Virus record (IMG/VR): IMGVR_UViG_3300021963_000669
Location: 1 to 23,373 of that record
Direction: 5' to 3' (one strand)
From: a virus
DNA length: 23,373 bases
Part shown: one piece after another, positions 2,025-17,670 of the stretch
Layout of the letters: the number at the start of each line of letters is the position of its first letter
Position numbering within the stretch: the stretch's first letter is position 1
Program-made: the position numbers and the translations under genes
Notes under the pieces: model-generated
The model's database searches: none
The model's input: only the letters and a program-made list of their open reading frames with translations
What the model was told of the DNA's origin: nothing

Positions 2025-3077
2025 TTAGACTTTTTGAGGCAGAATTTCACGTTTGTATGCGCCACTCATGAAAGCATTGAGCAAATGCTTGGGCGGGTAC
2101 GCATTGGGAAACTTTTTGGCGCGGCTCATGACGCTGTTGTACCGATTTAACGCTTTGCGGTATTGTTCTTCATCTTCAATGTTTTCTTCTATCCAAGCTC
2201 GGACACCTTCGTAAGTTTGACCATATTTGGCTTTGATAGCGTCCCTGTCCAGTTCTTTGTAATAGCGTTCATGCGCCAGCATTTCAGGAAATATTTCAAT
2301 GACTTTGGCATACATTTCTGGTGCGGACTGTTTTATTTTGTCAAAACGCTTGGCATTTTCCGCATGAAGCGGAGTGGACACTCGCAAAGATTGACCCGCC
2401 CACATCTGCTGGTCATACAGTTTGCAATAGGCAATATTTCTATCGTAAAAATAACGAAAAACATCATCTTCTTCCCAATCATAGATGGGCTTGCACAGCT
2501 TTACCCTGTCTGTTGAGGGAACGGCATTGATGTAGTTTTCATTGAGTTTGTTGACGCTGGCGCGAAACCGCATAATAGATTCGCTTGACCGTATGCCAGT
2601 TAAAAAGGCGACCTTGCCCTTGTAATACTCAGCGGCATAGTCATCCATCGTATATTGGTCAAATATTCTTGCGTCATCTGGTGCTGTGCTTACCGCCCAT
2701 TCAGGCATTGGGCGAATATGCTCACGTTTTTTGTCCCATTGCGTATAGACATGGCACATTCCAAGAATGTATTTGGTGGAAGCCAACGGTACGGCAAACC
2801 AAACCATTTTTATCCAAGGTTCTTGTCGATATTTATCTACAAAATTGATAACTTCCATTGGTATCAATTCTTCATCGCGAAACACTACATTCACAGGTTT
2901 TGTAATGCCGCGCTCATCGTAAACTTCTTTTATCAAATGCAATACGACAAGTGAATCTTTGCCGCCAGAAAACATGACAGCTAATGTGTCAAAAGTATCA
3001 ATTAAATGGTTGATGCGCTGTTTGGCGGCTGTCAATACATCAATGTCAATGTATTTTTTAATCCGTGCCATAGCCAT
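2025..3077 (-). CDS. PAPS-reductase/PP-loop family protein (IbrA/DndC-like)
   Basis: A 350-aa adenine-nucleotide alpha-hydrolase. The PP-loop motif SGGKDS is at residues 37-42, followed by a PVNVVFRDEE segment near 65-74 and the long C-terminal helical extension seen in IbrA/DUF3440-type proteins. True PAPS reductases make sulfite; relatives such as DndC activate sulfur for DNA phosphorothioation, and IbrA acts with the ParB-like IbrB. No matching Dnd core (DndD, DndE, IscS-like) is visible here. I chose the ATG at 3077; ATG 3071 is nearly as good, and a TTG at 3110 would lengthen the overlap with the upstream ParB gene (now 20 bp). The flanking ParB-type genes make an IbrA/IbrB-like pair likely. 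The substrate is unknown. Confidence 0.82.
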   Translation of the reverse strand: MAMARIKKYIDIDVLTAAKQRINHLIDTFDTLAVMFSGGKDSLVVLHLIKEVYDERGITKPVNVVFRDEELIPMEVINFVDKYRQEPWIKMVWFAVPLASTKYILGMCHVYTQWDKKREHIRPMPEWAVSTAPDDARIFDQYTMDDYAAEYYKGKVAFLTGIRSSESIMRFRASVNKLNENYINAVPSTDRVKLCKPIYDWEEDDVFRYFYDRNIAYCKLYDQQMWAGQSLRVSTPLHAENAKRFDKIKQSAPEMYAKVIEIFPEMLAHERYYKELDRDAIKAKYGQTYEGVRAWIEENIEDEEQYRKALNRYNSVMSRAKKFPNAYPPKHLLNAFMSGAYKREILPQKV

Positions 3078-3660
3078 TTGCCCGGACAAATAATTGCAAT
3101 CTGTGACCAACAGTTTCTGCGTCTGGATATTGGTCTTTCAAGTATTTGACAAAATTGTACCAATCGGATTGTTGTTCTTCATCATCAAAAATAATGTTGA
3201 ATTGAATGGTGAAATTGATTTTGGTTGGCTGGTCTTGGTCTGTTTTTTCTTCATTGCCAAACAAGGATTGAAGCTCATGTTCACCAAACCCTAAGATGTC
3301 TAAATCATAGCCAACATCTTTTAAATCATTTATTTCTAATGCTAAAAGCTCATTGTCCCAACCAGCATTTAATGCAAGTTTGTTATCTGTAATTACATAA
3401 GCTCTTTTTTGCTCATTTGTTAAATGTGAAAGCTCAATAGTTGGCACTTTGATTTCGCCCAAATGTTGCGCCGCCAACACTCGCCCATGACCAGCAATGA
3501 TGCCGTTTTGCCCGTCCAAAAGAATTGGGTTGGTAAATCCAAATTCTTTGATGCTTGCCGCTATTTGCGCGACTTGGCCTTCATCGTGTGTTCGGCTGTT
3601 TCTTGCGTAAGGGATTAAATCTTCTGTTTTCTTGTATACGATTTTTAGCTGTGCTGTCAT
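3058..3660 (-). CDS. ParB/sulfiredoxin-fold nuclease-like protein (200 aa)
   Basis: A typical phage ParB-domain protein. After an N-terminal strand (LIPYARNSRTH, residues 15-25) come a QIAASIKEFGF helix (32-42), NPILLDG (44-50), the IIAGHGR motif (54-60) and an AYVITDNKLALNAGWD segment (88-102) that is highly characteristic of the family. Phage members are often fused to or next to DNA methyltransferases and terminase genes, and have been annotated as ParB-like nucleases or chromosome-partition-like proteins. The acidic linker after residue 135 and the C-terminal 50 residues are not recognisable to me. ATG 3660 lies 14 bp after the upstream gene. It overlaps the PAPS-reductase-like gene, consistent with co-translation and a shared function. 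Confidence 0.88.
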   Translation of the reverse strand: MTAQLKIVYKKTEDLIPYARNSRTHDEGQVAQIAASIKEFGFTNPILLDGQNGIIAGHGRVLAAQHLGEIKVPTIELSHLTNEQKRAYVITDNKLALNAGWDNELLALEINDLKDVGYDLDILGFGEHELQSLFGNEEKTDQDQPTKINFTIQFNIIFDDEEQQSDWYNFVKYLKDQYPDAETVGHRLQLFVRANGYGTD

Positions 3661-3674
3661 GTAATGCCCTTTTG

Positions 3675-4082
3675 TTAAGCCAGAAACTTTAGCTTGTAAA
3701 GTGTTGAATCAATCAACTGCACGATTTCATCAGTGATGTTTTGCAATTCTGAATCTTGTGGAAATCCATTTGCTTTGCGAAGCATTGCCACTTCATCGCT
3801 TAGGTATGTTAAGTATGTAACAGGGTCTTGTTCTGGAAACAATGCGGCAGTGACAGGGTACTTTGTCAGCAAACCATATTTGCCTTGAAACGCTTCAACA
3901 AAGTCATCCACATGGTCGCCAATCTCAGTGTAAAAGGTTTCCAGTGCCTTGTGCTGGCTATAACTACGGTTGGACAAATGCAGAATGTGTGCCGTTGTGA
4001 CGCTGTTGAGCAAACAAATGACGTAATCCATCACAGGGTCAGCTTTGCTTATTTCTTGAATGCTTGCAGTGAATTTAACCAT
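3675..4082 (-). CDS. DUF5856-like phage protein
   Basis: A 135-aa, mostly helical protein. The segment from about residue 30 to 70 (AHILHLSNRSYSQHKALE, then FVEAFQGKYG) matches the pattern I associate with DUF5856. That family is found in many large phages and looks like a ferritin/Dps-type helical bundle (H32, H35, H44 and acidic residues on successive helices). Function is unknown; iron binding or protection of DNA is only a guess from the fold style. It begins with a good ribosome site (AAAGGA, 6 nt before ATG 4082) and is preceded by the 327-bp non-coding gap. It may therefore be transcribed from its own promoter as well as from the leftward operon. Confidence 0.6.
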   Translation of the reverse strand: MVKFTASIQEISKADPVMDYVICLLNSVTTAHILHLSNRSYSQHKALETFYTEIGDHVDDFVEAFQGKYGLLTKYPVTAALFPEQDPVTYLTYLSDEVAMLRKANGFPQDSELQNITDEIVQLIDSTLYKLKFLA

Positions 4083-4409
4083 GATTTTCCTTTAAAGGTT
4101 GTCGGCTACTCGCTACTTCTGGTTGACAATTAAGCAACGTGGCGGTCTAGGCCATCCTTCAGCATCCGCTTTCACCAACACGGCTGGAAACTGTACTCAG
4201 GTGAACCCGATTAAATGCCACTGAAAGCAAGTTGACAATTCCCATGCGTGTTAGCTGTTTCACCAACAAGTGTATGGACTGTTATGGGTGCGACCCATGC
4301 AGAGCATCGGGATGAATGACTTGTAGACGGTTAGCTTGCAAGACACCGAACTCTCAGAGGTCACATGACCGACTTCATCCTGCCAATCCACACACTTCTT
4401 GATGTTTTG
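4083..4409 (-). other. Structured non-coding gap, possible leader RNA or ncRNA
   Basis: No convincing gene fits these 327 bp, the only gap of this size in an otherwise overlapping operon. Several inverted repeats are visible. GGATGAA (4310-4316) pairs with TTCATCC (4374-4380) and encloses GGTCA/TGACC (4359-4363/4366-4370). A 6-bp hairpin ATGGGT/ACCCAT with a 3-nt loop lies at 4284-4298. GTTAG/CCAAC (4250-4254/4263-4267, one G-U pair in the RNA) and CCAAC/GCTGG (4175-4179/4183-4187) are further stems. Two direct repeats occur: GTTGACAATT at 4122-4131 and 4231-4240, and TTTCACCAACA at 4170-4180 and 4258-4268. Only tiny ORFs are present. I match it to no known RNA class. It could be a regulatory leader for the downstream genes, a free ncRNA, or a decayed insertion. 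Confidence 0.45.
4210..4238 (-). promoter_or_regulatory. Possible sigma70 promoter inside the non-coding gap
   Basis: On the minus strand TTGTCA (4238-4233) and TTTAAT (4215-4210) are separated by 17 bp, each one mismatch from the sigma70 consensus. Transcription would begin near 4203 and give a leader of about 120 nt before the DUF5856-like gene. The -35 lies in one of the GTTGACAATT repeats, so part of the match may reflect that repeat. Confidence 0.35.
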
Positions 4410-4736
4410 TTAATTATCCACCAGCGGGTCAGGCGAGTCAATCAGTATCAAATCCCGCTTTTGCAACTCAATCCATGTTTTTTTCAATGCGGCAAAAAAC
4501 ATCTTTTGCTTTTGGTCTTTTGTTAAGCTGTGACCGCCATCCAAATCGTGATGGCAAGCAAAGCATAATGCCGCCGCAAACACATCAGAAGCCTTAATGC
4601 CTCGCCCTTTGCCATGTACCGCCATGTTGCTATGCGCCGCTTGCGTTTGCCCCTCTAGGCCGCAATGCTGACATGGCAATGATGCCACGTTCTTCAAGTG
4701 CTTTTTACTGCGAAAATATTGAAATTTTTGCCTCAT
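4410..4736 (-). CDS. YbcO-like nuclease (DUF1364 family)
   Basis: A 108-aa zinc-binding protein. CQHC (22-25), an AHSN segment (34-37), GKGRGIKASD (42-51) and CFACHHDLDGG (58-68) follow the YbcO/DUF1364 pattern. YbcO, from an E. coli cryptic prophage, is a small HNH-type nuclease encoded in lambda nin-like regions, where it is thought to replace other recombination nucleases. The ATG overlaps the upstream stop as ATGA (4733-4736). The neighbours NinB and a VRR-NUC-type nuclease support a recombination or replication-repair role. It is the last gene before the non-coding gap. Confidence 0.8.
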   Translation of the reverse strand: MRQKFQYFRSKKHLKNVASLPCQHCGLEGQTQAAHSNMAVHGKGRGIKASDVFAAALCFACHHDLDGGHSLTKDQKQKMFFAALKKTWIELQKRDLILIDSPDPLVDN

Positions 4737-5191
4737 GTGATATGTACAACCCGATGATTGTTGGAACGAATGTAGTTGATGGTTTTTTCAATCATACGTT
4801 CATATTCAGACCGACTGATGCTTGTTCGTTGCAAATCGTGATATTCGTACAATTCTTTCAAATAACGAATGCCTGTGCCTGTTAAGCCCATCTTGCGGGT
4901 TTTTTCGTACCTGTGCGCCGCTGATTCCATTTCCTTTTGCACAATTTCACACACTGCAAGCACTTCAATGCCAATGCCGTTTGTTGCCATAGTCTCAGCA
5001 ATGTTAAGCATATCCACCAGCACCCGCCAATCGCCAGTTGTAGCGTTACCCTTGACCATTGATTCAATCGCGCTTAATTCGTTCAGGCGCAATTTGTCCA
5101 GTTTGTCTTCAGGCGTAATTGCCGCGCCATGCAAAGCGTGTTCAATGGGATTAACTTTTGCCCATATTTTTCTGCGACATTGTTTTCTCAT
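4733..5191 (-). CDS. Conserved phage hypothetical protein between NinB and YbcO
   Basis: A 152-aa soluble, helical, charged protein. It has a basic N terminus (RKQCRRKIW), a NPIEHALHGAAITPEDKLDK segment at about 14-33, and an LYEYHDLQR segment near 113-121. I recognise this as a type of unnamed protein common in Burkholderiales phages and prophages, without a known function. Start and stop both overlap their neighbours by ATGA, so it is surely translated as part of the NinB-YbcO block. The NinB-like context suggests an accessory role in recombination or replication. No catalytic motif is visible. Confidence 0.75.
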   Translation of the reverse strand: MRKQCRRKIWAKVNPIEHALHGAAITPEDKLDKLRLNELSAIESMVKGNATTGDWRVLVDMLNIAETMATNGIGIEVLAVCEIVQKEMESAAHRYEKTRKMGLTGTGIRYLKELYEYHDLQRTSISRSEYERMIEKTINYIRSNNHRVVHIT

Positions 5192-5592
5192 GTTAAGTCA
5201 ACGCCATTTTGTGCCGCCCATGCAAATAGCCATTCAATAAATTCACTGCCTTGCTCTTTTGTTAATTTCCTGCTTTGCAACCCAAGTTGAACAATGCCTG
5301 TGCCGTCAAGACTTGCAACGATTCTGCCCTGCGGCAAATTTGCTTGTTTGGCAAACTCATGTAACAACAATCGTTTCCAATCGTCAGCATTCCAACGCGC
5401 CCCTTGATGTTGTGCTTGTTTTGCAATTTTGCCAATCATTGCGTGATACATCTCCTCTTGGTCACGTGTTTTGCTTTCTGGCTTAACTTCAATCGTTAAG
5501 CGTTTGCCAGTGTCCAAAGCGGTTTTGATTTTGAACCATAATGTCAATATCAACGCATGGGCTTGCTTGCTGTTTTCCAATTTGTAAATCAT
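5188..5592 (-). CDS. ninB: NinB recombination protein
   Basis: 134 aa, close to the usual NinB length of about 140. Segments KTRDQEEMYHAMIGKIAKQA (residues about 41-60), WNADDWKRLLLHEF and ASLDGTGIVQLGLQ followed by GSEFIEWLFAWAA are diagnostic. NinB (Orf) of lambda is a RecFOR-like mediator that binds single-stranded DNA and SSB and loads recombinase during phage recombination. Here it sits between a VRR-NUC-type nuclease and YbcO. An ERF annealing protein and an SSB-tailed protein are encoded in the opposite operon, so the recombination genes are split across two transcripts. Start ATG 5592 overlaps the upstream stop as ATGA. Confidence 0.92.
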   Translation of the reverse strand: MIYKLENSKQAHALILTLWFKIKTALDTGKRLTIEVKPESKTRDQEEMYHAMIGKIAKQAQHQGARWNADDWKRLLLHEFAKQANLPQGRIVASLDGTGIVQLGLQSRKLTKEQGSEFIEWLFAWAAQNGVDLT

Positions 5593-5876
5593 TTTTTATT
5601 CTGTAATATTTTTAATGCTTCATCGACTGACTTAACAATGTGAACTGAACCACGCCAAAGACTGTGCCAATGCTTTTGATAAATGGTCAATTCTTGCTTG
5701 CTTAACACTTTGTCGCCATCTTTGATTTCCATCAAGTAATTGATGCCGTGATAACCCACAAGCAAATCTGGACAGCCTTTGCCAGTTGTTGCCAATGATT
5801 GAACGCTTGCGCCAGCTTGACGCAATACGTTAACAACATCACTTTGATTGCTGTCCGTCTTTGCCGCTTTTCTCAT
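5589..5876 (-). CDS. VRR-NUC / PD-(D/E)XK nuclease-like protein
   Basis: A compact 95-aa protein with the core of a VRR-NUC-type restriction-fold nuclease: GCPDLLVGY at residues 34-42 supplies the PD, and LMEIKDG at 48-54 the E-x-K. An early N/Q-rich helix (NQSDVVNVLRQAG) would carry the family's E/N-x-x-V element. Such minimal phage enzymes resemble Holliday-junction or flap nucleases. In this operon it lies between the small replication-associated genes and NinB, where lambda-like phages often place a resolvase. It overlaps the preceding small gene out of frame by 38 bp, and its ribosome site is weak, so coupling to that gene is likely. Confidence 0.82.
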   Translation of the reverse strand: MRKAAKTDSNQSDVVNVLRQAGASVQSLATTGKGCPDLLVGYHGINYLMEIKDGDKVLSKQELTIYQKHWHSLWRGSVHIVKSVDEALKILQNKK

Positions 5877-7090: not shown

Positions 7091-7113
7091 ATTAACCTCA
7101 CTTCATTGGTCAT

Positions 7114-7174
7114 CTTCACGGAAGAAACAACAGCAGGACGGTGAAGAATCGTCTTTTCAGGAGCTACCCTAGCT
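7114..7174 (-). promoter_or_regulatory. Leader hairpins between repressor and replication genes
   Basis: The 101-bp gap at 7091-7191 has two inverted repeats: CTTCAC/GTGAAG (7114-7119/7141-7146, 21-nt loop) and AGCTA/TAGCT (7162-7166/7170-7174, 3-nt loop). No U-tract follows either, so they are not obvious terminators. They could be an antitermination or RNA-processing site in the leftward transcript. No boxA-like element stands out. Confidence 0.3.
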
Positions 7175-7191
7175 GTGCCTCAAATTGTGCC

Positions 7192-7344
7192 TTAAAACCA
7201 CTCAGGCTTCAAGACTTTTAACTGCCAAAATCTTGCATCAGGAACGTCATCACCCCATTGAGAAATCGCTGATTGCGTGATTCCCAAAAGCTCTGCCAGC
7301 TTTACCTGTGACCCTGCTAAACGTATTGCTTCAAGAGTTTTCAT
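7192..7344 (-). CDS. Cro-like HTH repressor
   Basis: A 50-aa Cro/YdaS-type regulator with a single helix-turn-helix at about residues 12-31 (QVKLAELLGITQSAISQWG) and a short C-terminal tail (FWQLKVLKPEWF), the usual Cro length. It most likely binds the ATTAGTTGGCTAAT-type operators in and around its own promoter and the two rightward promoters. I start it at ATG 7344, not the upstream TTG at 7380, because 7380-7375 reads as the -35 hexamer and 7357-7352 as the -10. The ATG then lies exactly where transcription should begin, giving a leaderless mRNA, as lambda cI has from PRM. No second, CI-like repressor with a peptidase domain is in this window. Operator binding is inferred, not shown. Confidence 0.85.
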   Translation of the reverse strand: MKTLEAIRLAGSQVKLAELLGITQSAISQWGDDVPDARFWQLKVLKPEWF

Positions 7345-7380: not shown

Positions 7381-7384
7381 GCCG

Positions 7385-7492
7385 ATTAGTTGGCTAATAC
7401 TTTTATTTGCTGAATTATTATTTGGCTAATACCCCTGTTTGTTGAGTTAGCTAATACCCTTGCATTTGCGTAGGGTATATTAGTTGGCTTAT
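7385..7492. promoter_or_regulatory. Operator cluster, ATTAGTTGGCTAAT and variants
   Basis: Four copies of a 14-bp partly palindromic site lie in the same orientation. 7385-7398 is the best form (ATTAG-TTGG-CTAAT), 7417-7430 has one change, 7442-7455 three changes, and 7479-7492 one change. Spacings between starts are 32, 25 and 37 bp. A fifth weaker site faces left at 7355-7368. The rightmost overlaps the -10 of the amidoligase promoter. The dyad fits a dimer of the adjacent Cro-like protein. Binding is inferred from position and symmetry. Confidence 0.7.
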
Positions 7493-7497
7493 ACTGC
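7449..7497 (+). repeat. 49-bp promoter-operator repeat, copy 1
   Basis: This copy matches 9032-9080 at 44 of 49 positions, with the last 32 bp identical. It contains an ACCCT/AGGGT inverted repeat, the -35 and -10 hexamers and an operator. Outside the repeat the two loci differ, so it was duplicated or maintained as a regulatory cassette. Confidence 0.9.
7466..7495 (+). promoter_or_regulatory. Rightward early promoter for the amidoligase operon
   Basis: TTGCGT (7466-7471), an 18-bp spacer and TATACT (7490-7495), giving a leader of about 35 nt before the amidoligase ATG. The operator at 7479-7492 covers the spacer and half of the -10, so bound repressor would block polymerase. The same hexamers and spacing recur before DUF932. 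Confidence 0.75.
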
Positions 7498-7538: not shown

Positions 7539-8348
7539 ATGAACAGAGCATTTGGAATTGAAATTGAAGCAACTGGTTTGAGCATGAGCCGTGTTGTTGA
7601 AGTATTGACCGCTGTGGGCATCCGTGCCGCTGTTGATGGTTACAACCACACTACCAAAACTTATTGGAAAGTGGTCAGTGATGCAAGTTTAGTTGGCGCA
7701 AATGCTTTTGAGTTGGTCAGCCCAATATTGCAAGGCGAAAACGGCTTGATGCAAGTTGCCCTTGTTGCCCATGCGCTTGAAACCGCTGGTGCAAAAGTCA
7801 ACGGAAGTTGTGGTTTCCATGTACACATTGACGGACGCGATTTGACAACTGACCAGTTGAAGCGCGTTTGCAAAATGTGGTTGAAATACGAAAACTGCTT
7901 TGATGCTGTGGTCGGTGCAAGCCGTAGAAATAACCGTTTTTGCAAAGGCATCCGTAGCAAGTTTCAAAGCCTTGAGCAAGGCTTCAAAGCCATTGACAAG
8001 GCAACCAATTTGAACGGCATTATCCAAGCCGTGAACGGTGATGGCAACGGATACACCAGCCGTTACCACAAGCTGAACCTTGAATCCATGTTACGCCACG
8101 GCACTGTGGAATTTAGACAGCATGGTGGCACTGTGACAGGTGAAAAAATGACAAGCTGGATTAAGTTGGTGATGGGTTTTGTGACTTGCGCCATGACCGC
8201 CAAAGCAATCCGCGCTACTGGCGATGGCAAGTTTGCCAACCTGTTGGACGTTTGCCCTGATGCCGCGACCCGCAAGTTTTTTGTGAGCCGCAAAGCAAAG
8301 TTTGCCGATGCAGACCGCGCAAATGGACGCACCCCGATTGCCGCATAA
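7539..8348 (+). CDS. Amidoligase (COOH-NH2 ligase family)
   Basis: A 269-aa member of the Amidoligase_2 family (glutamine-synthetase-like COOH-NH2 ligases). Visible motifs in order: FGIEIE (5-10), WKVVSDASL (43-51) with FELVSPILQGE (57-67), CGFHVHID (91-98), RYHKLNLES (175-183) and TVEFRQHGG (189-197). These supply the Glu, His and Arg residues expected to bind ATP-Mg. The family is predicted to join an amino group to a carboxylate and so make amides or peptide tags; known phage substrates are lacking. ATG 7539 has AAAAGGA 6 nt upstream. It heads an operon with a 79-aa unknown and a cyclotransferase-like enzyme that could undo gamma-glutamyl bonds, and is the first gene behind the repressed early promoter. 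Alternative roles include cell-wall or nucleotide-linked modification. Confidence 0.92.
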   Translation: MNRAFGIEIEATGLSMSRVVEVLTAVGIRAAVDGYNHTTKTYWKVVSDASLVGANAFELVSPILQGENGLMQVALVAHALETAGAKVNGSCGFHVHIDGRDLTTDQLKRVCKMWLKYENCFDAVVGASRRNNRFCKGIRSKFQSLEQGFKAIDKATNLNGIIQAVNGDGNGYTSRYHKLNLESMLRHGTVEFRQHGGTVTGEKMTSWIKLVMGFVTCAMTAKAIRATGDGKFANLLDVCPDAATRKFFVSRKAKFADADRANGRTPIAA

Positions 8349-8358
8349 GGAAATGACC

Positions 8359-8598
8359 ATGACATATTTAGCAATGATGACTGATGGTGCGATTTATGCA
8401 GGACGCACCTGTACCGAAGTTGTGACCCGAATGCGTGAGGCTGGACTGTTTACTGCTGGCAAAAGTGACATGGAATATATGTTGTTTGTCAGCCACCGCG
8501 CCAAGTTTTTAAGTGATGTACCTGTGCGTTATGACACCGCTGAGAATTTTTTGCATGATTTGCAAGCCACCAAACTTTTGATATTGAAAGCACTGTAA
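8359..8598 (+). CDS. 79-aa unknown protein between amidoligase and cyclotransferase
   Basis: Not recognised. A 79-aa alpha/beta-looking protein starting MTYLAMMTDGAIYAGRTCTE, with a hydrophobic, strand-like start and a C-terminal helix ending KLLILKAL. I chose ATG 8359 because AAGGAA lies 6 nt upstream; ATG 8353 would leave no spacing. The downstream gene starts in its stop codon (TAATG), so the two are translationally coupled. Being sandwiched between two enzymes of opposite predicted chemistry makes it a candidate substrate, carrier or adaptor of the module. Nothing in the sequence proves this; it lacks a GG or Cys carrier C terminus. Confidence 0.7.
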   Translation: MTYLAMMTDGAIYAGRTCTEVVTRMREAGLFTAGKSDMEYMLFVSHRAKFLSDVPVRYDTAENFLHDLQATKLLILKAL

Positions 8599-9056
8599 TG
8601 AAAACGAATCGTATTTATGCCGCTTATGGAAGCAATTTGAATCATGAGCAAATGTTGCGTAGATGTCCTAAAGCCAAGTTCATAGGAATTGGCGAGCTTC
8701 ACAATTACCGATTAGTTTTCCGTGGAGTTGCTGACATTGAATATTCACATGGTTCAAAAGTCATGATTGGGCTGTGGAGTGTGTCAAATGATTGTGTTGA
8801 TGCACTGGATAGGTATGAGGGTTATCCAAGCCTCTATGGTCGCAATAACGTGCGAATTTATCGTGGTGCTGGCAAACACACTGAAGCTTTTATTTACTTC
8901 ATGAATTGTCAAGATTATCGCCCACCACAAGCACATTACTTGAAATCTATTGCTGATGGATATGAGGATTGCAACCTGTCTTTGACCCCACTCAAAGACG
9001 CGCTGGAATGGACATTTGAACAATATGAATCAGCTAATAACCCTGAGCTTGCGTAG
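8598..9056 (+). CDS. Gamma-glutamylcyclotransferase-like (AIG2/GGCT) protein
   Basis: 152 aa with the BtrG/GGCT fold motifs: YGSNL at 10-14 (substrate loop) and DRYEGYP at 71-77, whose E74 aligns with the catalytic Glu that protonates the gamma-glutamyl amine. Family enzymes release 5-oxoproline from gamma-glutamyl peptides or amines, for example removing a protecting group in butirosin synthesis. Pairing of amidoligase-type ligases with GGCT proteins is a known genomic theme, thought to be a make-and-trim pair for gamma-glutamyl linkages. It starts in the previous stop (TAATG). Its last codons overlap the promoter-operator repeat for the next gene, so the coding and regulatory sequence are shared at 9032-9056. 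Confidence 0.88.
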   Translation: MKTNRIYAAYGSNLNHEQMLRRCPKAKFIGIGELHNYRLVFRGVADIEYSHGSKVMIGLWSVSNDCVDALDRYEGYPSLYGRNNVRIYRGAGKHTEAFIYFMNCQDYRPPQAHYLKSIADGYEDCNLSLTPLKDALEWTFEQYESANNPELA

Positions 9057-9080
9057 GGTATATTAGTTGGCTTATACTGC
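9032..9080 (+). repeat. 49-bp promoter-operator repeat, copy 2
   Basis: Second copy of the sequence at 7449-7497. Its first 25 bp code for the end of the cyclotransferase-like protein, yet 5 mismatches are all confined to positions 9-17 and the last 32 bp are identical. The identity thus spans coding and non-coding sequence, and selection on promoter function is the simplest explanation. Confidence 0.9.
9049..9078 (+). promoter_or_regulatory. Operator-controlled promoter for the DUF932 operon
   Basis: TTGCGT (9049-9054), 18 bp, TATACT (9073-9078), identical to the amidoligase promoter. An operator variant (9062-9075, 13 of 14 matches) covers the -10, and a weaker half-match lies at 9025-9038. 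A short GT run (9080-9090) follows the start region. Expected leader is about 30 nt. Confidence 0.75.
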
Positions 9081-9116: not shown

Positions 9117-10085
9117 ATGGCTCACTTGATAGAACAAAATGTGATTACAGGCAAAGCAGAAATTGCTTATGCAAATGCAATGCCTTGGCATGGACTTGGT
9201 CAACAACTGACCCAAGACGCACCCATTGAAGTTTGGCAACAAGAGGCTGGTTTAAATTGGCACGCAAATGTTGCACCAGTGCAATTTCAGCCAACACTTA
9301 ATGCAAACCTTGTAACAATGCCAAACAAACTTGTGATTTACCGCAATGACACTTTTGCGCCGTTGGGTGTAGTAACCAATAGATACAACATTCACCAGCC
9401 GTCAGAGGTGCTTGAATTCTTTAACACGCTTGTGCAATCCGCTGGCTTTACTCTTGAGGTTGCTGGCGCAATCAAAGGCGGCAAAAGAATCTGGGCGTTG
9501 GCAAATGTAAACCGCGAGTCAGTGGTTTTGCAAGATGATGCTGTGCGCGGATATTTGCTGTTGTCTACGAGCTTTGATGGCACTGCCGCCACGATTGGAC
9601 AATTCACCAGCATCAGGGTTGTGTGCAATAACACGTTGTCTGCCGCCGACCAAGAATCTGCACCAAGCCGAGTAATTTTGACGCATGGTTCAACTTTTGA
9701 CCAAAGCCTGATGCGTGACCGTTTGGGCTTAGTTGTCAGCGGGTTTGACGGCATGATGGACAAATACCGAAAATTTGCCCGGCAAGGAATATCCAGTGAG
9801 TACGCCAATGAATTTGTGAATACTTTATTCCCTGCGGCATACAACCACCAGACCAACACATTCAAAGAGTCTCGCGGATTTAAGCGGGTTTTAGAATTAT
9901 TTGGTGGCGCGGGTATGGGCGCGAATAATTATGGCGTTTACGGCACGAAATGGGGCTTGCTGAACGCTGTTACCCAGTATATCGACCATGAGCGTGGACA
10001 CAATGTTGATACACGCATGAATAACGCATGGTTTGGCAATGGCAACCGCATGAAGTCACAAGCTGAAGAAATGTTGCTTGCTTAA
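9117..10085 (+). CDS. DUF932 (phage/plasmid-type) protein
   Basis: A 322-aa member of the DUF932 family, widespread in phages and plasmids. The N terminus with AMPWHGLGQQL (about 21-31), the IYRNDTFAPLGVVTNRYNIHQPSEVLEF region (two segments, about 74-101) and the VVCNNTLSAA stretch (about 168-177) are typical. The biochemical function is unknown; an early, highly expressed DNA-metabolism or host-takeover role has been suggested for relatives. AAAGGA lies 7 nt before the ATG. It has its own copy of the early promoter and is followed by a hairpin that may end most transcripts, so it forms an almost independent unit under the same repressor. Confidence 0.85.
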   Translation: MAHLIEQNVITGKAEIAYANAMPWHGLGQQLTQDAPIEVWQQEAGLNWHANVAPVQFQPTLNANLVTMPNKLVIYRNDTFAPLGVVTNRYNIHQPSEVLEFFNTLVQSAGFTLEVAGAIKGGKRIWALANVNRESVVLQDDAVRGYLLLSTSFDGTAATIGQFTSIRVVCNNTLSAADQESAPSRVILTHGSTFDQSLMRDRLGLVVSGFDGMMDKYRKFARQGISSEYANEFVNTLFPAAYNHQTNTFKESRGFKRVLELFGGAGMGANNYGVYGTKWGLLNAVTQYIDHERGHNVDTRMNNAWFGNGNRMKSQAEEMLLA

Positions 10086-16557: not shown

Positions 16558-17670
16558 CTACCTAAAAAATTTGCCTACCATCCAACACACAACAGAAAAT
16601 CGTTCACCCTCCTCAACATCCTCCACGCCGTGCATTATGAAAGATGGAAACACCAACACAGTGCCTTTGGTTTGAGGCGGGTAATAACGATTCTGACCGT
16701 CTTGCAAGAAGAACTTGCCACCCTTGAAATTATCGTTCAGGAACGCTAATACCGTCAATTTACGGCATTCATCCCCATGTTGCAAAAAAGTGTCCACATG
16801 GGCTTGATAGCGACCGCCAGCAGGATATGCAAGGAATTCAGCTTGATTGGCATGGGTAACGTCAAAGTTCCACATTTGTTTATTTGCCCACAGACCAGCC
16901 GCCGCCAATCGACCGCCAATGTCTTTGTATGTCGGCAACATCACACGAATGACATTTCGCACTTCCAGATTGATTGCGCCAACACCATCACCAATCACAG
17001 GTGGTTCTTTTGGTACTCTGTCTTGTGTGTAAAGCCGAATCAATGAATCACACGCATCAGATGTCAAGATGTCGTTGTAAACCCAATGCCGCATTTCAAC
17101 CGATGGCAAGTTAAGTGATGGTCGTTTGTCAAATTTCCATTCAGCGTGTATGCCATCAACATCAACATAATGCAGAAAAACCTGTGCTTGCCATTTTCCC
17201 TCTGTGTATGTCTCGCGCCAATGATGTTTGTCCATGCCCCTGTAAAGCACAGCATCACCCACAGCCATATCAATCTTGCTTGCGTTAGCCTTATCCTCAT
17301 CACCCATGTAAATAGGCCACACATTACCATCAAATCCAAGCGTCAAGGTTGCGCTAATTTCACAAGATTCGCGGTCGGTGTGAATGGTTAATTCATCATT
17401 AGGCGCATACAGTCGAGCATACGAATATGTCGGATAAAGTCGTTTGCCTGATGCTTTTTCAAAGTATGGCAATAAGTCAACCAGCAATTTATCAAATGCC
17501 ATTGCGCCGTGAATTGCTTCTGACTTTGGGCATTGACTGTCTTGTGTGGTTTGTTTTTCAGCAACCAAACGGTTCAATTCAGCGGTTAACTCAGCACATG
17601 ATTCTTTGGCAAGAAAGTCCTTAAGATGGACATATTTTTCAACAATGAATTGACTGAGTTGGTCGCACAT
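16558..17670 (-). CDS. Tandem 2-oxoglutarate/Fe(II) dioxygenase
   Basis: 370 aa containing two double-stranded beta-helix domains in one chain. Domain 1 (about 75-170) has HTD (H97, D99), a distal H149 and K159 ten residues on. Domain 2 (about 195-367) has HVD (H291, D293), a distal H347 and R357. Each set matches the HxD...H iron triad plus the basic residue that holds 2-oxoglutarate, so both domains look catalytically complete. The fold is prolyl-4-hydroxylase-like (GGKFFLQDG, KGTVLVFPSFIMHGV). Substrates may be tail, cell-surface or nucleic-acid groups; unknown. It lies in the late operon 4 bp after a tail-associated gene, so it probably modifies virion or host-surface components. Confidence 0.88.
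   Translation of the reverse strand: MCDQLSQFIVEKYVHLKDFLAKESCAELTAELNRLVAEKQTTQDSQCPKSEAIHGAMAFDKLLVDLLPYFEKASGKRLYPTYSYARLYAPNDELTIHTDRESCEISATLTLGFDGNVWPIYMGDEDKANASKIDMAVGDAVLYRGMDKHHWRETYTEGKWQAQVFLHYVDVDGIHAEWKFDKRPSLNLPSVEMRHWVYNDILTSDACDSLIRLYTQDRVPKEPPVIGDGVGAINLEVRNVIRVMLPTYKDIGGRLAAAGLWANKQMWNFDVTHANQAEFLAYPAGGRYQAHVDTFLQHGDECRKLTVLAFLNDNFKGGKFFLQDGQNRYYPPQTKGTVLVFPSFIMHGVEDVEEGERFSVVCWMVGKFFR

Follow-up and report, generated by a model that had tools for sequence, protein, structure and literature searches.

A small protein family encoded directly behind amidoligases of phages, plasmids and bacterial genomes

The 79-aa protein encoded between an amidoligase gene and a GGCT/AIG2 gene in a 23,373-base virus record from IMG/VR (hereafter the window, i.e. 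the whole stretch of DNA analysed) belongs to a compact, previously undescribed family. Its gene is a steadier partner of the amidoligase than GGCT, as a family member stands directly behind 80 of 108 non-redundant amidoligases (<80% identity) of phages, plasmids and bacterial genomes, against 34 of 108 with GGCT nearby; the GGCT count misses YtfP-type GGCT and GGCT beyond the fetched flanks, and all these frequencies describe the clade of the window amidoligase, since its relatives were fetched by similarity to it. Amidoligase and GGCT are already known together from phage cassettes and the small family is the new addition; no open-licence PMC paper naming it was found. The best explanation, to which we give an even chance, is a two-component ligase in which a small subunit confers specificity on the amidoligase or regulates it, GGCT being an optional eraser.

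The locus and its two enzymes

The + strand of the window carries, in this order, Amidoligase_2, the 79-aa gene, GGCT, a DUF932/TIGR03299 gene and an Erf-type annealing protein. The amidoligase (7539-8348, ATG at 7539; 269 aa) matches PF12224 with 148.6 bits (curated cut-off 22; E 3.6e-43) over positions 2-244 of the 245 in the profile, and its residues E8, E10, H94, R129, E191 and R193 are invariant in 37 relatives. The AlphaFold2 model (pLDDT 93.6, pTM 0.92) has YbdK, Dop, gamma-glutamylmethylamide synthetase (GMAS) and glutamine synthetase as its best PDB matches by Foldseek, YbdK being the top one (1r8g, E 2.4e-5). Intact motifs and a glutamine-synthetase-like fold make the protein a predicted carboxylate-amine ligase, which by analogy may use ATP. 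The likeness to YbdK and the glutamate-cysteine/carboxylate-amine ligases is one of fold, whereas sequence identity between YbdK and the window amidoligase is only ∼12%. YbdK is a chromosomal enzyme and is not known to depend on a small partner. Several Bacteroidota amidoligases (our loci L009, L002, L006, L024 and others) possess a conserved N-terminal extension comprising the first 65-70 residues (TKTxKIxQLLxLGLTRRQVADL...); by eye it resembles a helix-turn-helix, a resemblance for which Pfam and PDB searches gave no match.

The GGCT protein (8598-9056, + strand; 152 aa) scores 43.2 bits against PF06094 (cut-off 22.8; E 6.7e-11), has the YGSN motif at residues 10-13, and matches human GGCT with an E of 2e-08. 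Its E74 occupies the position of the human GGCT Glu (Gln in PDB 3cry), and 41 of 41 homologues have Glu there. The protein is a predicted cyclotransferase with an intact catalytic Glu. The stop of the small gene and the start of GGCT are joined by TAATG. The original prediction, which placed the motifs of both enzymes on either side of an unrecognised small gene coupled by TAATG, is borne out on each of these points, and the decay of catalytic residues in relatives, which it had named as evidence against itself, is seen in neither enzyme. PADLOC gave no match at E 0.1 for the amidoligase, the 79-aa protein or GGCT.

A divergent Cro-like HTH regulator is encoded upstream (7192-7344, - strand; Pfam P22_Cro, E 1.3e-13). 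The 18-mer TATTAGTTGGCTTATACT occurs at four sites in the window with ≤3 mismatches, where 0.02 would be expected by chance; three operator-like copies (7384, 7416 and 7478, spanning 7384-7495 on the + strand) lie between the repressor and the amidoligase, and one lies upstream of the DUF932 gene (9117-10085, + strand; DUF932 E 7e-51, TIGR03299 E 2e-82). A promoter/operator-like stretch of 55 nt is also duplicated on the + strand, with copy 1 at 7443-7497 and copy 2 at 9026-9080, overlapping the end of GGCT and preceding DUF932. Identity between the copies is 87%, rising to 100% over a 32-nt core, and both carry the TATTAGTTGGCTTATACT element. DUF932 thus appears to own a copy, which brackets the amidoligase, small gene and GGCT, the only + strand genes in the interval between repressor and DUF932, as a separate unit. 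Among the loci tested, the duplication is found in the window only.

The claim that these are the first genes behind an early promoter stands in part. A repressor-type early position is plausible from the TATTAGTTGGCTTATACT sites, but a simple sigma-70 scan flagged no + strand promoter at the 55-nt stretch, so that the promoter is deduced from the layout, from which early, repressor-controlled expression of the three genes may reasonably be inferred. Adjoining the Cro-like gene is a match to int-alpA RNA (7113-7179, - strand; RF02996, 32.2 bits, cut-off 35.8), an RNA scoring above the cut-off in the relatives L185, L187, L188 and L251. Elsewhere the window encodes a 2OG-Fe(II) oxygenase-domain protein of 370 aa (16558-17670, - strand; PF13640, E 4.5e-17) and, close to each other, a PAPS-reductase-like protein (2025-3110, - strand; PF01507, E 3e-19) and a ParB_N-like protein (1475-1993, - strand).

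Association of the small family with the amidoligase

The small gene occupies 8359-8598 on the + strand and belongs to the conserved amidoligase-linked family. An in-frame ATG at 8353, 6 nt upstream, is a possible alternative start, but 8359 is preferred because the spacing from AAGGA (8347-8351) fits it better. With the 79-aa protein as a single query, IMG/VR yielded nothing, and of two weak tblastn matches in annotated phages one lay directly behind an amidoligase. The 79-aa protein could be aligned with the products of genes placed likewise in Porphyromonas phages, gut phages and Phocaeicola plasmids. A profile was built from nine seeds, and loci, many of them metagenome-derived, were drawn from IMG/VR and GTDB genomes by amidoligase similarity. 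In the first-round loci, the profile located the small gene behind nearly all amidoligases, on the same strand and mostly overlapping or at most a few tens of nucleotides apart; over IMG/VR and GTDB together it is present in 140 of 179 loci, on the same strand throughout. A conserved presence beside the amidoligase is therefore found; the original prediction had proposed to look for it next to amidoligase/GGCT pairs. The family extends over at least seven phyla (Bacteroidota, Thermodesulfobacteriota, Pseudomonadota, Bacillota, Verrucomicrobiota, Cyanobacteriota, Spirochaetota, Ignavibacteriota) in addition to phages. Long 'small' ORFs overlapping the ligase turned out to be mis-called starts, the 72-aa gene of UFV-P2 was rejected as a member, and in Bacillus phage 055SW001 the product of a 74-aa gene that follows the amidoligase can be aligned with the family over 60 columns, though with a P of only 0.021.

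A profile search of Bacteroidota genomes that was blind to the ligase found an amidoligase immediately upstream in 18 of 24 small-family loci, two of the 18 being search-centre genomes picked for carrying the pair. The six ligase-free loci comprise one by a diadenylate-cyclase gene, one isolated on a chromosome, one broken by internal stops, and three longer proteins of two-domain or unclear setting. The small gene is hence closely but not invariably linked to the ligase, and the domain can occur by itself. The stand-alone gene beside the cyclase (L266:3851-4075) lies 11 nt upstream of a DACNH + diadenylate-cyclase (DAC) gene (4087-5829) on a chromosome, with no amidoligase detected nearby. 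In two Prevotella-type loci (L127, L133), an apparent second small-family copy is present upstream of the amidoligase, besides the downstream one.

The amidoligase tree requires few changes, 8, for the small gene, against 13 for GGCT and 2 for glutamine amidotransferase. Distances among amidoligases and among small proteins correlate (r 0.61, against ≤0.10 in 500 permutations), a correlation that can arise by co-inheritance alone. In 61 of the 108 amidoligases the small gene is present while GGCT is undetected nearby, which goes against a tie of the 79-aa protein to the GGCT half. Amidoligases lacking the small gene on the same tree are accompanied by GGCT only, by glutamine amidotransferase or, in a few cases, by neither. 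A class-II glutamine amidotransferase is found with 11 of the 108; ten of these rows form one clade nested among small-gene-bearing amidoligases, and the small gene occurs in none of 12 loci having this enzyme, as if the glutamine amidotransferase had taken its place in the nested clade. Pairs of amidoligase and class-II glutamine amidotransferase, e.g. those of OM43 phages (PMC10580990), resemble the present pair in the position behind the amidoligase, and differ from it in that the small gene is never co-present. Bacteroidales amidoligases with the glutamine amidotransferase at the small-gene position are those of L012, L147, L162, L164, L165, L167-L169 and L174-L176.

The cassette as mobile cargo

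Among 80 IMG/VR relatives of the window DUF932 gene (68-87% identity), the interval between repressor and DUF932 is empty, filled with small ORFans, or occupied by the triad of amidoligase, small gene and GGCT, the DUF932 gene being the downstream border of a variable cargo slot. The triad is complete in 5 of the 80 loci and partial in none; it is wholly absent from the closest relatives (83-87%), an absence that is certain only where the repressor is present (59 loci), since some of the contigs stop before the interval. This all-or-none pattern implies that the cassette comes and goes as a whole, and that phages of this group can do without it. Absence of the 79-aa gene in related phages, which the original prediction took as a sign against itself, is thus observed in the nearest ones, but only together with both enzymes, whereas the gene is present in all five enzyme-bearing DUF932-linked loci and in the window.

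The pair of amidoligase and small gene also adjoins portal and adaptor/head genes in Porphyromonas phages, and, in Bacteroidales plasmids or contigs, genes of the ParA and DUF3408 types, which are of plasmid or conjugative character. Both settings argue against a module specific to early takeover, and the proposal of a dedicated early-infection unit is not upheld. In relatives, though not in the window, the slot before DUF932 contains type-I hammerhead ribozymes, one to three each, just upstream of genes (L180 at 3368-3419, 3660-3711 and 3922-3973; also L179, L183, L185-L190, L192, L195, L200, L202 and L204). There are 20 copies, against none in shuffled controls; their stems vary compensatorily and the RNA folds as expected, with Rfam scores below threshold. 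Hammerheads flanking prophage genes have been described previously (PMC3088659).

Fold and possible roles of the 79-aa protein

The 79-aa protein has a compact and confident model (pLDDT 91.6, pTM 0.80, no residue below pLDDT 70), with the order beta-beta-alpha-alpha-alpha-beta. Neither the protein nor its relatives have a significant match in the family libraries searched (Pfam, PHROGs and NCBIfam, and PADLOC for the 79-aa protein). Foldseek against the PDB gave no match (best E 0.13) and no carrier fold, and the fold is shared with a few uncharacterised viral proteins (A0A516M232, E 1.8e-5, TM 0.85). A likeness to the boca/MESD chaperone, seen as a weak PDB profile match (E 0.012), was not confirmed by Foldseek. 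Across 86 non-redundant members the conserved positions are G10, R26, Y/F40, M41, R47, R57, F64, D67, L68 and G72, that is, glycines, hydrophobics and charged residues (R26, R47, R57, D67) of structural or charged type; no Cys, Ser, Lys or Glu acceptor and no C-terminus is conserved. Since neither a nucleophile nor a C-terminus is conserved, a role as substrate or carrier is disfavoured and that of a specificity or regulatory subunit is favoured. Sequence and model together point to a domain that binds rather than to a carrier or tag that is loaded covalently, so that of the substrate, carrier or adaptor envisaged in the original prediction, adaptor is the better choice.

According to the two-component explanation, the three genes would together make up a single cassette of mobile elements that carries out an amide-bond modification. 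The amidoligase would couple a carboxylate on the target to an amine, for which glutamate or another amino acid is a candidate. The 79-aa protein, co-produced with the ligase, would have no catalytic part; by binding either the ligase or the ligase's target, it would determine specificity or activity. GGCT, as the optional third member, would remove gamma-glutamyl groups as 5-oxoproline and so limit or trim the modification. The target may be a peptidoglycan peptide, as in the published proposal, or a protein. In the window phage the cassette would be cargo in a repressor-controlled early slot between the Cro-like gene and DUF932.

That the 79-aa protein is itself the substrate or tag, amino acids being added to it or the protein being ligated to targets as Pup is by PafA, with GGCT trimming the product, is unlikely. 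Resemblance to the PafA/Dop/Pup system lies in the glutamine-synthetase-like fold class of the ligase, in Dop, with bound Pup, among the nearest solved folds, and in a small protein encoded beside the ligase and co-inherited with it. Unlike Pup, however, the window protein is folded and has no disordered stretch, a C-terminal Gln/Glu or Gly is not conserved in its family, and the cassette is without a proteasome-type partner. An acyl or peptidyl carrier would likewise differ, as the family has no conserved Ser/Cys/Lys attachment site and the fold is not four-helix. The missing acceptor, the stand-alone copies and the want of a carrier fold by Foldseek all count against a substrate. The broader form of this idea, in which members of the small family serve as dedicated protein substrates or tags in a pupylation-like mobile-element system acting on host proteins in many phyla, is more doubtful still; if true, phages and conjugative elements would possess a pupylation-like system consisting of a ligase, its own small protein and sometimes a cyclotransferase eraser.

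There is a similarly slim chance that the small protein restrains the ligase as an inhibitor or antidote, in a pair resembling toxin-antitoxin or immunity systems where chromosomal orphans confer immunity. Tight coupling, distribution on mobile elements, orphan chromosomal copies without ligase and the optional nature of the cassette agree with this idea; amidoligases of the same tree lacking the small gene (the GGCT-only and glutamine-amidotransferase clades), the second place that the antidote would take in the pair and the lack of a PADLOC match speak against it.

Co-occurrence of amidoligase and GGCT, cited as known in the original prediction, is indeed published (PMC5498523, PMC5513430, PMC3890496), including amidoligase with AIG2 in Arthrobacter and LUZ24-like phages (PMC5513430, PMC3890496); amidoligase/GGCT proposals of Iyer 2009 are quoted here as cited in PMC5498523, PMC11318856 and PMC10580990. 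In phiEco32-, LUZ24- and PSA-HP1-type phages, amidoligase, GGCT, ATP-grasp and glutamine amidotransferase are read as peptidoglycan modification (PMC5498523, PMC11945000, PMC10580990). An extension of this interpretation to the window, with stem peptides altered against superinfecting phages and the small protein incidental, appears improbable. The published cassettes share with the window the ligase and cyclotransferase Pfam families and a location among early/replication genes, and they also occur with glutamine amidotransferases. The window unit, in contrast, has three genes with the small gene in the middle, and is devoid of the ATP-grasp and second COOH-NH2 ligase of the pathway and of glutamine amidotransferase. 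Moreover, the profile did not find the small family in phiEco32 and UFV-P2, whose amidoligases are distant (50.7 and 65.3 bits), the family is too constant for an incidental member, and the peptidoglycan target is itself a prediction. A chance neighbourhood, with a hitch-hiking or unreal ORF, has nothing but small size in its favour and is refuted by the confident fold and by same-position homologues across these phyla at 14-49% identity with E down to ∼1e-30.

Phage amidoligase cassettes have been known since 2009 and, to our knowledge, their target is without confirmation. A small foldable protein trailing the ligase would offer a direct handle on this question, as the ligase may be purified via its partner and the target sought. 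The pair is present in Phocaeicola vulgatus ATCC 8482 and Bacteroides xylanisolvens XB1A, which makes the question testable without the uncultured phage. Within the clade the small family mostly follows the ligase, and does so both in phages and in cultured organisms.
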